NCBI GenBank assembly: GCA_001769655.1
Contig: MEPC01000029.1
Span: 1 to 64,000, forward strand
Origin: Bacteroidetes bacterium RIFCSPLOWO2_12_FULL_37_12
Lineage (GTDB): Bacteria > Bacteroidota > Bacteroidia > 2-12-FULL-37-12
DNA: 64,000 bases
Reading direction: 5' to 3'
The notes under the pieces were generated by a model. That model had not been told where the DNA came from. It saw nothing but the letters and a program-made list of their open reading frames with translations, and searched no databases. Both the position numbers and the translations under genes were made by a program. Positions 24,158 to 59,637 of this stretch are shown here, piece after piece; the first letter of the stretch is position 1, and each line of letters starts with the position of its first letter.

Positions 24158-24310
24158 TTTTTATATACGATTTACAAATTAGGTGCTAAAAAGTAAAATA
24201 TTTAATTGAATAGAAATAAAAGGCAAACATACATGAAATTTTTGAATTATGAACAAACTGTGAAAATTCGTAGCTATCGTAGTGAAAGTAAAAAAAAATT
24301 ATTAATTTCG

Positions 24311-24408
24311 TGCCCGGGTAAGCCGATACGACCAGCTCCTGTCAAACTCCTCCAGGTCCGGAAGGAAGCAAAGGTAGATGGTTGAGCGGTGCGATATTGG
24401 TTTACCTT
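24311..24408 (+). ncRNA. ffs: Signal recognition particle RNA, small bacterial type
   Basis: The conserved SRP domain is plain: CTCCAGGTCCGGAAGGAAGC followed by AAAGGTAGATGG. The ends GGGTAAGCC and GGTTTACC pair to form the long helix, with a G-U pair. A T-run (CTTTTTTT) follows the stem and should terminate transcription. The RNA binds Ffh and targets membrane proteins to FtsY and the translocon. Exact 5' and 3' ends are estimated to within a few bases. Confidence 0.93.
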
Positions 24409-24416
24409 TTTTTATT

Positions 24417-54649: not shown

Positions 54650-54739
54650 TGTAAAGGTGCCTCTAAAAAAAGGTAACTATATATTTCTTTGCACAATAAG
54701 GCGTGTATGTCTATGAAAATCAAATAGTTGCAATTAAAT

Positions 54740-54862
54740 CTACCATTTGCTTTTTTTCTTTCTATTCTTTGGCTTTGGTGCCGGATTGTCACCTACGGCA
54801 ATTCTTATCACATCTTCAAGTGTTCCGGTAATTTTGAGTGGTTTTTCTTTTTTGTTTTTCAT
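54740..54862 (-). CDS. Small basic passenger protein (40 aa)
   Basis: MKNKKEKPLKITGTLEDVIR continues IAVGDNPAPKPKNRKKKSKW. The ITGTLEDVIRIAV helix between lysine-rich ends resembles very small proteins seen in accessory regions of Bacteroidota; I know no function. The promoter box TATCTTTG (54871-54878, minus) ends only 9 bases before the ATG, so the mRNA has almost no leader. The clear promoter and reading frame make it a likely real gene. Confidence 0.65.
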   Translation of the reverse strand: MKNKKEKPLKITGTLEDVIRIAVGDNPAPKPKNRKKKSKW

Positions 54863-54870
54863 ATTAAAAA

Positions 54871-54878
54871 CAAAGATA
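54871..54878 (-). promoter_or_regulatory. -7 box of the 40-aa gene
   Basis: TATCTTTG on the minus strand, matching TAnnTTTG, 9 bases before the ATG. Confidence 0.55.
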
Positions 54879-55030
54879 TGTCTTTTAAATGAAAAAATTA
54901 ACCGTCTTCCTATCTATGGGACAAATGTTTTCAAAACACAAAAATAACAATTTAATTCAAATATACTTTACCCACACCAATTGTGGATAAGTTTTTTATT
55001 GTTTCTGTTGTTTTTCAAATTCAAACTATT

Positions 55031-55038
55031 TACCTTTG
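55031..55038 (+). promoter_or_regulatory. -7 box of the 134-aa passenger gene
   Basis: TACCTTTG, an ideal box, 24 bases before the ATG at 55063. Confidence 0.6.
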
Positions 55039-55062
55039 TAATCGAAAACAATATAAATCAAA

Positions 55063-55467
55063 ATGAAAAATAAACCAGATGATAATTTCTTAAATACGTT
55101 ATTTGAGAAAAAACAAGAGTTACTACAGCAAGTGACCACCATTGATAATACTATTTTAATGTTTGGTGGGGAGATTAATCCAGAAATAAATGGAAAGAAT
55201 GGAAAAAACATTATAAACATGGATATTCCCAATGAATATGATTTTAATTTAACGTGGGAAGAAAAAACCATGTTTGCACTAAAACATTTAAAAAAAGAAG
55301 CATTGGTAGAAGAAATTGTTAGTTATTTAAAAAAACTTGAACCTGACGAAAAAGAGGACATTTTGTTTAAGAGGGTAAGGGTTGCCGCCTCCAATTTATG
55401 TCATAAACGTGGTTTAATTGAAATAGCTAAAAAAATAGGCAAGAAGGTTGTGTATAGATATAAATAA
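55063..55467 (+). CDS. Passenger protein with C-terminal winged-helix-like region
   Basis: A 134-residue protein I cannot name. Residues 5-30 form a coiled-coil-like helix (FLNTLFEKKQELLQQVTTID). The C-terminal 70 residues (TWEEKTMFALKHLKKEALVE, LFKRVRVAASNLCHKRGLIE, IAKKIGKKVVYRYK) show the helix-helix-wing pattern of a small winged-helix domain, so it may bind nucleic acid, perhaps the element's own ends or RNA. It has its own promoter box and a strong hairpin terminator starting at the stop codon. Confidence 0.72.
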   Translation: MKNKPDDNFLNTLFEKKQELLQQVTTIDNTILMFGGEINPEINGKNGKNIINMDIPNEYDFNLTWEEKTMFALKHLKKEALVEEIVSYLKKLEPDEKEDILFKRVRVAASNLCHKRGLIEIAKKIGKKVVYRYK

Positions 55468-55498
55468 GAAACCGTTACTCTGAATCAGTAACGGTTTC
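55468..55498. terminator. Perfect 12-bp hairpin after the 134-aa gene
   Basis: GAAACCGTTACT, loop CTGAATC, AGTAACGGTTTC. It is weakly T-rich to the right and more T-rich on the minus strand. It can end the gene to its left or a leftward transcript from 55692. Confidence 0.7.
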
Positions 55499-55506
55499 TA
55501 AAATAT

Positions 55507-55577
55507 TGCCTCGTTGAGTGCCAACTCTGCAACGGCTTTCAACCGTTTGTAACAAGGTTCGTAACCTTGCGGGGCAA
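55507..55577 (+). ncRNA. tRNA-like cloverleaf RNA (anticodon position UUC)
   Basis: Folds with tRNA geometry. The acceptor is TGCCTCG/CGGGGCA (7 bp, one G-U), then TT (U8), then D-like arm GAGT/ACTC with loop GCCA. A 3-base linker leads to the anticodon arm AACGG/CCGTT with loop CTTTCAA (U33, UUC, A37), a 5-base variable loop, and T arm CAAGG/CCTTG with loop TTCGTAA joined directly to the acceptor. A73 follows, then CTA instead of CCA. Missing features are G18G19 in the D loop and A58 in the T loop, so it is probably a tRNA-derived or mimicking RNA, not a standard tRNA. The strand is fixed by the T loop and the G-U pair. Confidence 0.5.
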
Positions 55578-55599
55578 CTAATTAAAAGAGGAATAAGAA

Positions 55600-55690
55600 A
55601 ACCTATAAGAAAAAACTAATTGTAGGTTGTGGGGTTGTTTGATGACGTACCATTAACCGAATTAAACGACCCTCTTATCCTTTTTATTTT
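55600..55690 (+). ncRNA. Two further hairpins downstream of the cloverleaf, last one terminator-like
   Basis: AACCTATAA (55600-55608) pairs with TTGTAGGTT (55620-55628), with one G-U pair. GGGTTGTTTGAT (55632-55643) pairs with ATTAAACGACCC (55661-55672) over 12 bp, with two G-U pairs, and is followed by T-rich TCTTATCCTTTTTATTTT. All G-U pairs exist only on the plus strand; on the minus strand they would be A-C mismatches. Together with the cloverleaf this suggests one plus-strand RNA ending near 55690. Confidence 0.45.
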
Positions 55691-55691
55691 A

Positions 55692-55699
55692 CAAAGGTA
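55692..55699 (-). promoter_or_regulatory. Leftward -7 box facing the structured RNA
   Basis: TACCTTTG on the minus strand with a TTG 20 bases upstream. It would drive an antisense transcript through the cloverleaf region to the 55468-55498 hairpin, a possible control of the plus-strand RNA. Confidence 0.4.
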
Positions 55700-55737
55700 A
55701 GCAGTAAATCTGAAATTAACAAGTTTGTATTTACGTT

Positions 55738-55750
55738 GTTTATACAATGT
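55738..55750 (-). promoter_or_regulatory. Candidate RHH operator, site 1
   Basis: The minus strand reads ACATTGTATAAACAA, one of three copies of AC(A/T)TTGTATAAACAA around the ribbon-helix-helix gene. It lies about 50 bases before the -7 box. Confidence 0.5.
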
Positions 55751-55776
55751 GGATAACTTTTTCTTTAAAAATATTT

Positions 55777-55789
55777 GTTTATACAAAGT
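55777..55789 (-). promoter_or_regulatory. Candidate RHH operator, site 2
   Basis: The minus strand reads ACTTTGTATAAACAA. It lies between the TTTG (-33) and TATCTTTG (-7) boxes of the RHH gene, where bound protein would block polymerase. Confidence 0.5.
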
Positions 55790-55797
55790 AATACACG

Positions 55798-55805
55798 TAT
55801 CTTTG
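55798..55805 (+). promoter_or_regulatory. -7 box of the RHH gene
   Basis: TATCTTTG, with TTTG at 55774-55777 as -33 box (20-base spacing), 28 bases before the ATG. Confidence 0.6.
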
Positions 55806-55833
55806 TACCGTACCTGAGGTTAATAACCAAAAA

Positions 55834-55974
55834 ATGAAAAAAGAAACGGTTATCATTATAAGGATTGATAATGAAATGAAAAAAGAAATAAAAAAGTTGG
55901 CTGAAAAAGATAGTCGCACCCTAAGCGATTTTATCAGATTACAATTAAAAAAATTGACCGAAAAAGTCAAATAA
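55834..55974 (+). CDS. Ribbon-helix-helix (CopG/Arc-like) regulator, 46 aa
   Basis: MKKETVIIIRIDNEMKKEIK begins with a short beta strand (TVIIIRID), followed by two helices (EMKKEIKKLAEKDS and LSDFIRLQLKKLTEK), the layout of Arc/MetJ/CopG dimers that insert the strand pair into the major groove. No toxin-like partner is adjacent, so a regulator of the element is more likely than an antitoxin. Three copies of a 13-15-base motif flank the gene: two in its promoter and one just before the transposase start, suggesting self-control and control of transposition. Confidence 0.72.
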   Translation: MKKETVIIIRIDNEMKKEIKKLAEKDSRTLSDFIRLQLKKLTEKVK

Positions 55975-55996
55975 TTTTTTTTGCCCTTAATGTAAT

Positions 55997-56009
55997 ACAT
56001 TGTATAAAC
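55997..56009 (+). promoter_or_regulatory. Candidate RHH operator, site 3 (transposase leader)
   Basis: ACATTGTATAAAC followed by AA, in the 49-base gap between the RHH stop and the transposase ATG. It includes the overlapping near-palindrome AATGTAATACATT (55990-56001). Confidence 0.5.
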
Positions 56010-56023
56010 AAAATAAATTTATT

Positions 56024-56968
56024 ATGAACACACAAACACAATTCACCAACCTTATAGAGTTGCAAAAGCAATTCAGAGATGAGGATACTTGCTGGAAGTA
56101 TTTAGAGAAACTACGTTGGACGGAGACAAAGGGGAACCCCATTTGTCCGTTCTGTTCCTCTAATAAGTTTTATGAACTAAAAAGAAAATTTAATTACCGG
56201 TGTGCCAACAGCGATTGTAGAAAAACCTATAATGTAAAAACAGGAAGTATTTTTGAAAACACCAAAATTCCTTTACGCACTTGGTTTATTGCTATCTATG
56301 TTGAAACCTCACACAAAAAAGGAATTTCCTCTTTACAATTACATAGAGATTTGGGGATTACTCAAAAAACTGCGTGGTTCATTTTGCACAGGGTTCGTGA
56401 AATGCTAAAAAGCAAGGCACCACACATGCTAAACAGCACCGTTGAAATTGATGAGACCTATGTAGGTGGAAAAGAAAGATTCAAACACACAAGACAAAGA
56501 AAAGATTTAAAAGAAGGCAGAGGATGTGTAAATAAAACAATGGTGTTCTCTATACTTGATAGAAACAGCGGGGTGTATTCTCAGGTCGTTAATAATGTTG
56601 ATGGAGAAACGCTAAAGCCGATTATCAGAACAGCGGTAGATAAATCTACGGTTATTGTTACAGATGGTTTTGGGGCGTATCAGGGACTTAATAAAGATTA
56701 TCGGCACGAGGTTGTTAATCATGCCCAAGATGAGTGGGTGTGTGGACAATTCCACACCAACAGCGTAGAGGGATTTTTTGGACTACTTAAAAGAGGTATA
56801 ATAGGAATTTATCATTATGTAAGTCCGAAACACCTGCACAGGTATTGTAATGAGTTTGGGTTTCGCTACAATACACGAACACAAGCAGAGGCAGAAAGGT
56901 TTGATAATGCTTTGTCCCAATGTGATAAGAGATTAAAATATACAGATTTGATTAAGAAAACAGTATGA
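56024..56968 (+). CDS. IS1595-family transposase
   Basis: A 314-residue transposase. An N-terminal zinc ribbon (NPICPFCSSNKFYELKRKFN ... RCANSDCRKTYNVKTGSIFE, CxxC...CxxxxC) is followed by a helical region and the ISXO2-like catalytic core: STVEIDETYVGGKERF (first Asp), STVIVTDGFGAYQGL (second Asp), and HTNSVEGFFGLLKRGIIG (third acidic/polar position and Lys). It cuts at the GGTAAC ends and makes 8-bp duplications. The ATG at 56024 is preferred over an in-frame TTG at 56000, which lies in operator site 3. No separate promoter is visible; it may be read from the RHH promoter. Confidence 0.94.
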   Translation: MNTQTQFTNLIELQKQFRDEDTCWKYLEKLRWTETKGNPICPFCSSNKFYELKRKFNYRCANSDCRKTYNVKTGSIFENTKIPLRTWFIAIYVETSHKKGISSLQLHRDLGITQKTAWFILHRVREMLKSKAPHMLNSTVEIDETYVGGKERFKHTRQRKDLKEGRGCVNKTMVFSILDRNSGVYSQVVNNVDGETLKPIIRTAVDKSTVIVTDGFGAYQGLNKDYRHEVVNHAQDEWVCGQFHTNSVEGFFGLLKRGIIGIYHYVSPKHLHRYCNEFGFRYNTRTQAEAERFDNALSQCDKRLKYTDLIKKTV

Positions 56969-57021
56969 TTTTTTAGCAATAGCTACCTATAACACTGGGA
57001 AATGATTGAAATAAAAATCAT

Positions 57022-57029
57022 TACCTTTG
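57022..57029 (+). promoter_or_regulatory. -7 box of the 87-aa gene (leaderless start)
   Basis: TACCTTTG ends 4 bases before the GTG at 57034, so transcription should start at or next to the start codon. Confidence 0.6.
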
Positions 57030-57033
57030 CATT

Positions 57034-57297
57034 GTGAAAAACAATTCAAAAAATAAACCAATAGTTTTGATTGAATGGAATGATTCTGTATTAGGATTCC
57101 AGGGATGGAAAATAGCAAAAGAAAACATTGAAAACATTACCCGTTTTCTTTCGGTAGGGTTTTTAATTTATAAAGACAAAGAAAAAACCATTCTTTATCC
57201 ACACATTGAAGACACAAAAGAAAATGACATGGTGGGTTCTGGAGATATAACCATTCCCAACTCTGCAATAAAAAAAATAACTATTCTAAAAAAATAA
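57034..57297 (+). CDS. Passenger protein of unknown function, probably leaderless (87 aa)
   Basis: An 87-residue soluble protein read from GTG. The start PIVLIEWNDSVLGFQGW followed by KIAKENIENITRFLSVGFLI and KEKTILYPHIEDTKEND is the look of small beta-rich proteins found in phages and mobile DNA, but I know no function. There is no other good start before the conserved-looking IEWND segment. The promoter box sits so close that the mRNA has no leader, which fits the absent Shine-Dalgarno site. It converges with the 46-aa gene on the other strand with one base between. Confidence 0.65.
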   Translation: MKNNSKNKPIVLIEWNDSVLGFQGWKIAKENIENITRFLSVGFLIYKDKEKTILYPHIEDTKENDMVGSGDITIPNSAIKKITILKK

Positions 57298-57298
57298 A

Positions 57299-57439
57299 TT
57301 ACTTCTTTTTGCTTTTCCCCCTTGATTGTGCTAAATCAGAGGCGGCAACGCTTTTTTCTCTTTTAGTGCTTGTCGGGTCTCTTAAAATTTGAGAAGCCAA
57401 TGAAGCTACTTTTTTTGATGTTTGTTTCGTATTTGACAT
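57299..57439 (-). CDS. Small basic passenger protein (46 aa)
   Basis: MSNTKQTSKKVASLASQILR continues DPTSTKREKSVAASDLAQSR and ends GKSKKK. The pattern KKVASxASxxLRDPxSxKxxKSVAxSxLxQ matches small lysine-rich proteins that I recall from accessory regions of many bacteria; function is not known to me. A TATCTTTG box on the minus strand at 57457-57464 lies 17 bases before the ATG. Confidence 0.68.
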   Translation of the reverse strand: MSNTKQTSKKVASLASQILRDPTSTKREKSVAASDLAQSRGKSKKK

Positions 57440-57456
57440 AACAACTTGTTTTTTTT

Positions 57457-57464
57457 CAAAGATA
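57457..57464 (-). promoter_or_regulatory. -7 box of the 46-aa gene at the right end
   Basis: TATCTTTG on the minus strand, 17 bases before the ATG at 57439. Confidence 0.55.
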
Positions 57465-57567
57465 GTAATTTTTAACTAATTACGTAGATATTTACTTTCT
57501 ATTAGGTTTGTGCAAACAGAGATATAGTTACCTAAAAAAAAATGTACACTTATCTTTAAATATTATA

Positions 57568-59492: not shown

Positions 59493-59637
59493 ACTGGTTA
59501 TAGAAGTAGATGGAATTACTCATAACTTACAAGAAATATTATTTACAAAAACAATAAAGTGGAGACCAGAGACCACTCCAAAAACGGGGCGTATTCTGAA
59601 AAGCCAAATGAGTAGGAAAAATAAACAAAGTAATTAT

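Follow-up and report, generated by a model that had tools for sequence, protein, structure and literature searches.

Catalogues of transposon cargo usually list protein genes. On bacterial mobile DNA the closest described systems are the IS200/IS605 transposons, with TnpB or IscB and their omega RNA, and the tRNA genes of phages, plasmids and ICEs. The closest tRNA-like RNAs in form are the human mascRNA and menRNA, which keep the acceptor and T arm of a tRNA together with a reduced D arm, and which are substrates of RNase P and RNase Z and remain uncharged (PMC11693755, PMC4919922); mascRNA needs its two D-loop guanosines for elbow recognition (PMC11693755). Searches of the open-access literature turned up no report of IS1595 transposons with tRNA-like cargo, in agreement with a preliminary description of the locus reported here, which knew of no earlier account of a structured RNA of this kind for these elements. 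At this locus, a divergent tRNA-like RNA lies on the plus strand inside an IS1595 transposon, between a gene of a coiled-coil/winged-helix-type protein family and a second RNA domain, and other elements likewise combine such an RNA with such a gene.

The window, by which we mean the whole 64,000-nucleotide stretch of DNA that was analysed, contains an IS1595-family transposon of 2861 bp at 54672-57532 (plus strand), with passenger genes inside and with the ends GGTAACTATAT... and ...ATATAGTTACC. The two copies of its 8-bp target-site duplication, TAAAAAAA, were read by eye at 54664-54671 (left) and 57533-57540 (right) and carry the same letters, with no strand assigned. The transposase, P0001 (56024-56968, plus strand), matched the Pfam family DDE_Tnp_IS1595 at 8.6e-42 and a zinc ribbon at 5e-10. 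Both marks of IS1595 membership, a transposase with zinc ribbon and terminal inverted repeats with an 8-bp duplication, are present, and the IS1595-type setting given in the preliminary description is upheld. A search of its own genome showed a single copy of the element. In plasmids, phages and 395 Bacteroidia genomes, searches for DNA homologues of the region gave nothing but short AT-rich matches.

The element also encodes a 46-amino-acid ribbon-helix-helix protein, P0002 (55834-55974, plus strand), with a Pfam RHH_1 match at 5.9e-4 that falls slightly under the cut-off. Three operator-like palindromes of the TTGTTTATACAATG type (55737-55752, 55776-55791 and 55997-56012) are placed around this gene and just 5' of the transposase; P0002 may be a repressor of its own gene, of the transposase and of a divergent transcript. 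Two small minus-strand ORFs are found by the element ends, at 54743-54865 (MKNKKEKPLKITGTLEDVIRIAVGDNPAP...) and 57302-57439 (MSNTKQTSKKVASLASQILRDPTS...), the first of a type with relatives at other IS1595 loci. Elsewhere in the window, Rfam identified a DUF805 RNA (83.7 bits, 59554-59622, plus strand) and a Bacteroidales small SRP RNA (74.8 bits, 24309-24411, plus strand).

Another passenger gene encodes a 134-amino-acid protein, P0003 (55063-55467, plus strand), preceded at 55031-55038 on the same strand by TAccTTTG, which we take from the Bacteroidetes consensus to be its -7 element. A 12-bp hairpin (55468-55498) follows the stop codon immediately on the plus strand, and it resembles a terminator in the minus-strand reading only. 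Next comes the cloverleaf at 55507-55577 (plus strand, A73 included), and every element that had been named for this 71-base stretch, namely the tRNA spacing, the stems, U33, the UUC triplet and the loop TTCGTAA, was found in place. The acceptor TGCCTCG/CGGGGCA is paired at 7/7 positions and followed by TT, the D-like arm GAGT-GCCA-ACTC is followed by TGC, the anticodon arm AACGG-CTTTCAA-CCGTT carries U33 and UUC and is followed by the variable TGTAA, and the T arm CAAGG-TTCGTAA-CCTTG abuts the acceptor. The D loop GCCA and the T loop confirm the absence of G18G19 and A58, and A73 is followed by CTA (55578-55580) in place of CCA, also as described before. A point absent from that description is that three bases (TGC), not one, separate the D and anticodon arms. 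In the energy optimum, the anticodon stem is longer and bulged, and the T arm has 7 bp and a 3-nt loop. A second structured domain lies at 55585-55685 (plus strand), consisting of a closing helix with two inner hairpins and then a TTTTTATTTT-like tail.

Over 223 nt, the plus strand folded at -77.1 kcal/mol (z -6.8, reached by 0/200 shuffles) and the minus strand at -60.2 kcal/mol (z -4.1), and the cloverleaf region formed the main peak of a sliding-window fold scan across the element. The second domain gave -33.1 kcal/mol on the plus strand versus -18.1 on the minus strand; it contains four G-U pairs on the plus strand and none on the minus strand, which bears out the earlier remark that such pairs are possible on the plus strand only.

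To compare the cloverleaf with tRNAs we used two covariance models. The model R2 was built from 32 tRNAs, 30 of them from the element's own genome and none from the element, and with filters off it matched the cloverleaf over its full length (positions 1-73) with 27.1 bits on the plus strand versus 10.3 on the minus strand (E 5.5e-9 in 501 bp and 9.7e-7 in 88 kb); with default filters it missed it. A custom tRNA scanner scored the cloverleaf 41.0; dinucleotide-preserving shuffles amounting to about 2.5 Mb gave 36.9 at best. The model R1, built from the window cloverleaf alone and run on 395 Bacteroidia genomes, gave 30 non-self matches, of which the best 19 were fetched; all 19 are tRNAs according to ARAGORN, 17 of them tRNA-Gln(UUG), one Arg and one Lys. 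Against these real tRNAs, 92% of the cells in the window stems were paired and 17 pairs had changed on both sides (0/500 shuffles), a count that leans toward structure because the alignment was fitted to the structure. With a full-length match to an independent tRNA model, the window RNA is a divergent tRNA-like RNA. It is not an ordinary tRNA, as had been proposed: ARAGORN found 0 tRNA genes and 0 tmRNA, the cloverleaf was not among the 43 matches of Rfam RF00005 at E<=10 in its own genome or in a 281-nt scan, and these results together with the missing G18G19 and A58 led us to reject a canonical tRNA. A tmRNA, with a tRNA-like domain and a tag reading frame, was rejected on the ARAGORN result, and neither a T-box nor any other Rfam RNA matched the region.

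The resemblance to tRNA-Gln raises the question of whether the RNA could be charged. By this reading its ends would be processed and CCA added, and the product would be aminoacylated or become a ligand of EF-Tu, a synthetase or an amidotransferase, in the service of translation or as a decoy; the window copy would then combine an acceptor of Gln type (U1-A72, A73) with the Glu anticodon UUC. The prevalence of tRNA-Gln among the best-scoring R1 matches in other genomes (17/19) and the well-formed anticodon loop CU-UUC-AA speak for it, while the 4-nt D loop without G18G19 speaks against it, as does the presence of tRNA-Gln and tRNA-Glu in the element's own genome, which also led us to reject a role of the element as source of a missing tRNA.

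Other IS1595 elements bear on this question. We surveyed about 157 loci (80 on genome contigs, 17 on viral contigs and 59 in a second genome set), detecting tRNA-like sequences with ARAGORN, R2 and the custom scanner. R1, applied to the 80 loci on genome contigs, found no copy of the window cloverleaf, and the closest IS1595 relatives, with 55-58% transposase identity, do not carry it. Other tRNA-like sequences were found within the terminal repeats of L024, L032, L055, L060/L061, L063, L066, L068, L082, L197, L203, L220 and L235. Those of L023, L241 and L252 are less certain because the element ends are unclear, and those of L009, L046, L226 and L230 are weaker by R2. We considered that these might be mere neighbours of transposase genes, and rejected this since the tandem or near-canonical tRNAs of 56-85 bits lie outside the repeats and the divergent ones, of mostly 18-63 bits, mostly inside, a contrast that was modest by the scanner alone (p 0.013). 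As a separate observation, a passenger protein (MSEDIIKQINDRAIGFRGTILNQTVILEKAIDQYISKYL...; L025 3388-3894, minus strand) is common to 16 IS1595 elements, and a tRNA-like sequence was detected in 0/16 of them.

The tRNA-like sequences of the elements resemble several types (Arg, Ile, Gly, Cys/Ala, and tmRNA-like Ala acceptors), and therefore do not represent one inherited gene. In 19 tRNA-like sequences the acceptor is paired at 128/133 positions and the T stem at 93/95, and T54, T55, C56 and A58 are retained in 17-19 of 19, although detection favours exactly these parts; the middle region ranges from 28 to 68 nt, with variable D and anticodon regions. In L197 (3700-3799) and L203 (4929-5044) the middle holds 25-45 extra nt, possibly insertions or extended arms, and in L046 (1775-1843), L230 (5807-5876) and L284 (4788-4854), the last a locus without IS1595, the motif G(A/G/C)(C/T)TTGA(G/C)ACC replaces the normal anticodon arm. 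L066 and L235 are near-canonical, the former being a tRNA-Arg(CCG) with 53.3 bits in Rfam, on the strand of the neighbouring ORF. The tRNA-like sequences of L055 (3487-3552) and L032 (5756-5824) have the tmRNA-type acceptor GGGGCTG/CAGCTCC-A with G3:U70, and G3:U70 with A73 is the alanine signal of the tRNA identity rules. A chargeable RNA or mimic gains from L066, from this alanine signal in L055 and L032 and from the TCCA encoded at the ends of the copies in L284. It loses from the lack of a recognisable anticodon arm in several copies (L055, L032 and L241), and from the four other tRNA-Arg of the L066 host, whose anticodons include TCG and ACG. Taken together, we regard charging or mimicry as rather unlikely.

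Beside ten of the tRNA-like sequences we found small ORFs that fit a single architecture, with a winged-helix-type domain after a coiled coil (P0003 in the window, and those of L009, L032, L055, L063, L066, L068, L197, L226 and L230). The distance between ORF and tRNA-like sequence is 6-72 nt and the strand is shared in 10/10 (chance 1/1024), with the tRNA-like sequence 5' of the ORF in L055, L032 and L068. This family is absent from Pfam, NCBIfam and PADLOC. Plain sequence search gave no homologues of P0003, and the profile route alone succeeded: an HMM of 12 members built without P0003 found it with E 5e-9 and 32.2 bits, and profile comparison with hhalign gave 91.5% and E 8.6e-7. Weak members are L009 (E 0.068), L023 (E 0.013) and L195 (E 0.3). 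AlphaFold predicted a long helix and a winged helix for the L068 member (pLDDT 82.5), for which Foldseek returned general winged-helix matches only (best E 0.02); P0003 alone gave a pLDDT of 44. The preliminary description, sound on the tRNA-likeness of the plus strand, on IS1595 and on the departure from an ordinary tRNA, had not seen this link to the neighbouring ORF.

The association was also found by counting loci. A tRNA-like sequence was present in 11/21 family-positive loci versus 10/136 others (Fisher 2.6e-6), and among loci with credible terminal repeats in 9/17 versus 7/81 (1e-4), p-values that are optimistic because the loci are related. No tRNA-like sequence was detectable in 10/21 family-positive loci, and we accordingly rejected the idea that every family member has one. 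The protein family was present in 58/395 Bacteroidia genomes, and of 40 further family loci a single one had an IS1595 transposase within 5 kb. One of the 40, L284, has the ORF, a 16-bp hairpin and two tRNA-like sequences ending in TCCA (40 and 18.5 bits) on one strand, and no IS1595 in 18.9 kb. The link between protein and tRNA is therefore not confined to IS1595, and a module unique to these transposons was rejected.

Perhaps the tRNA-like sequences are neutral cargo, host tRNA genes captured by chance that drift without a function for the element. The very variable passenger content of the elements and the spread of scores from 63 bits to about 10 would fit such drift. However, every stem pair of the window copy is intact (acceptor 7, D 4, anticodon 5, T 5) though it is far from any tRNA, whereas the T arm is broken in L353 (32.7 bits), a true host pseudogene; moreover, adjacency to one ORF family, a shared strand and repeats from different tRNA types would not be expected by chance. 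We consider neutral cargo quite improbable.

The regions 3' of the family ORFs are themselves structured. For 22 ORFs the 3' flanks had a mean z of -4.4 on the sense and -3.2 on the antisense strand, with -1.5 for the 5' flanks, and most of the ORFs, that of the window included, have a hairpin right after the stop codon. Homologous copies of an RNA of about 130 nt, with the core GTGTGCCGTCTCTCATTAGGATAGGGC and double-sided changes in its hairpins, occur in nine IS1595 elements; its sites include L066 5030-5168 (minus), L055 2582-2724 (minus), L060 3730-3870 (plus) and L027 3530-3698 (plus). The order in L066 is ORF, hairpin, tRNA-Arg, this RNA and a terminator. Rfam, run on 13 member loci, matched two tRNAs only, and the RNA of about 130 nt was absent from its matches; the alignment does not demonstrate that the second domain of the window belongs to it. 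Repeated hairpins with the loop GCTTCCAAAAC occur upstream of the GTGTGCCGTCTCTCATTAGGATAGGGC core in L055, L049 and L036, in the 3' flank or near the left end.

The same flanks contain signals on the opposite strand. A promoter-like site, TTG-N20-TACCTTTG, is found at 55692-55722 on the minus strand of the window, from where transcription would read through the structured region toward the terminator-like hairpin at 55499-55467. An antisense TTG-N19..21-TAnnTTTG is present in 6/21 family 3' flanks, the window among them, versus 0.32 in shuffles (0/200 reach 6), and after the post-stop hairpins U is more frequent on the antisense than on the sense strand (3.9 versus 2.2 of 8). From these signals, a minus-strand RNA that covers exactly the cloverleaf region is plausible. 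The functional transcript could then start at about 55685 and end at the terminator, the plus-strand cloverleaf being mainly its mirror image, or both strands could be expressed with the minus strand as antisense regulator of the ORF 3' region. The plus strand is nevertheless preferred by fold energy, by the wobble pairs and by the tRNA model, the sense strand was the more structured one in 18/22 flanks (Wilcoxon p 0.0017), and near-canonical tRNAs such as that of L066 are on the ORF strand. A functional minus-strand transcript thus seems unlikely to us.

The explanation that we prefer, tentatively and at somewhat less than an even chance, is that the tRNA-like RNA is a maturation signal of the RNase P / RNase Z type which joins the P0003 mRNA to the downstream structured RNA. 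It is favoured by the steady acceptor and T arm, the parts that mascRNA and menRNA keep, and is consistent with the R2 match to 55507-55577 on the plus strand, with the adjacency and common strand in 10/10 cases and in L284, with the excess of tRNA-like sequences in family-positive loci, and with structured RNA after the ORFs. The ORF, the tRNA-like RNA and the downstream RNA would be one cargo module transcribed from the ORF promoter. Enzymes of tRNA maturation would recognise the tRNA-like part, with RNase P acting on the 5' end and RNase Z or trimming nucleases on the 3' end. In the manner of the tRNA-like mascRNA at MALAT1, cleavage would free both an mRNA with the stop-codon hairpin as protected 3' end and a downstream structured RNA. 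The predicted winged helix suggests that the protein might control transcription or transposition, perhaps with an RNA partner. Several observations count against a maturation signal: the window copy lacks G18G19, the tRNA-like sequence is 5' of the ORF and not between ORF and RNA in L055, L032 and L068, 10/21 family-positive loci have no detectable one, L066 and L235 are nearly canonical, beyond the needs of a cut signal, a putative minus-strand promoter and terminator bracket the region, and the AlphaFold model of P0003 alone was poor.

More broadly, it is possible, though we would put it no higher than that, that Bacteroidota transposons carry an undescribed ribonucleoprotein cargo of a coiled-coil/winged-helix protein and a partner RNA, into which different tRNAs were drawn again and again and then remodelled; the tRNA-like RNA, for example the Gln acceptor/Glu anticodon hybrid of the window, would be a functional part and not a passive relic. 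That the coupling of a tRNA-like RNA to a protein family and a further RNA is a new kind of module we likewise offer as a tentative proposal. Should this pattern hold up, members of a common bacterial transposon family would have captured tRNAs many times over and reduced them to acceptor and T arm. They would also have coupled these tRNAs to proteins of a family missing from Pfam, NCBIfam and PADLOC, and to structured RNAs that match nothing in Rfam. This would be natural tRNA mimicry in bacterial mobile DNA and would invite tests of roles in RNA processing, translation or transposition control. Genome annotation would currently overlook most such RNAs, as ARAGORN and Rfam were silent on the window copy.

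Compared with the known systems, the window copy shares with the tRNA-Gln(UUG) of Bacteroidia U1-A72, G2-C71, A73, the T-arm sequence AAGGTTCG and the cloverleaf geometry, but differs in its 4-nt D loop, its lack of G18G19 and A58, its UUC anticodon and the three bases between D and anticodon arms. The tRNA-like domain of tmRNA also has an acceptor and T arm with a changed middle, and L055 and L032 carry an acceptor of this type, GGGGCTG/CAGCTCC-A with G3:U70; the window region, in contrast, has no tag ORF and no ARAGORN tmRNA, and its acceptor is of the Gln type. Like mascRNA and menRNA, the 3'-terminal tRNA-like RNAs of MALAT1 and MEN-beta, the window RNA keeps acceptor and T arm, has a reduced D arm and belongs to the end of a longer transcript, as we infer, but those are human nuclear lncRNAs and not bacterial transposons, their cleavage is shown whereas ours is inferred, and mascRNA keeps two D-loop guanosines (PMC11693755), which the window copy does not. 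As with TnpB/IscB and omega RNA, a structured RNA beside or overlapping a protein gene is carried as transposon cargo, although P0003 is of the 134-amino-acid coiled-coil/winged-helix type, with no nuclease match, and there is no sequence relation. Finally, phages, plasmids and ICEs are alike in having tRNA genes on mobile DNA, but those of IS1595 are mostly divergent, are tied to one ORF family and lie within a DDE transposon.
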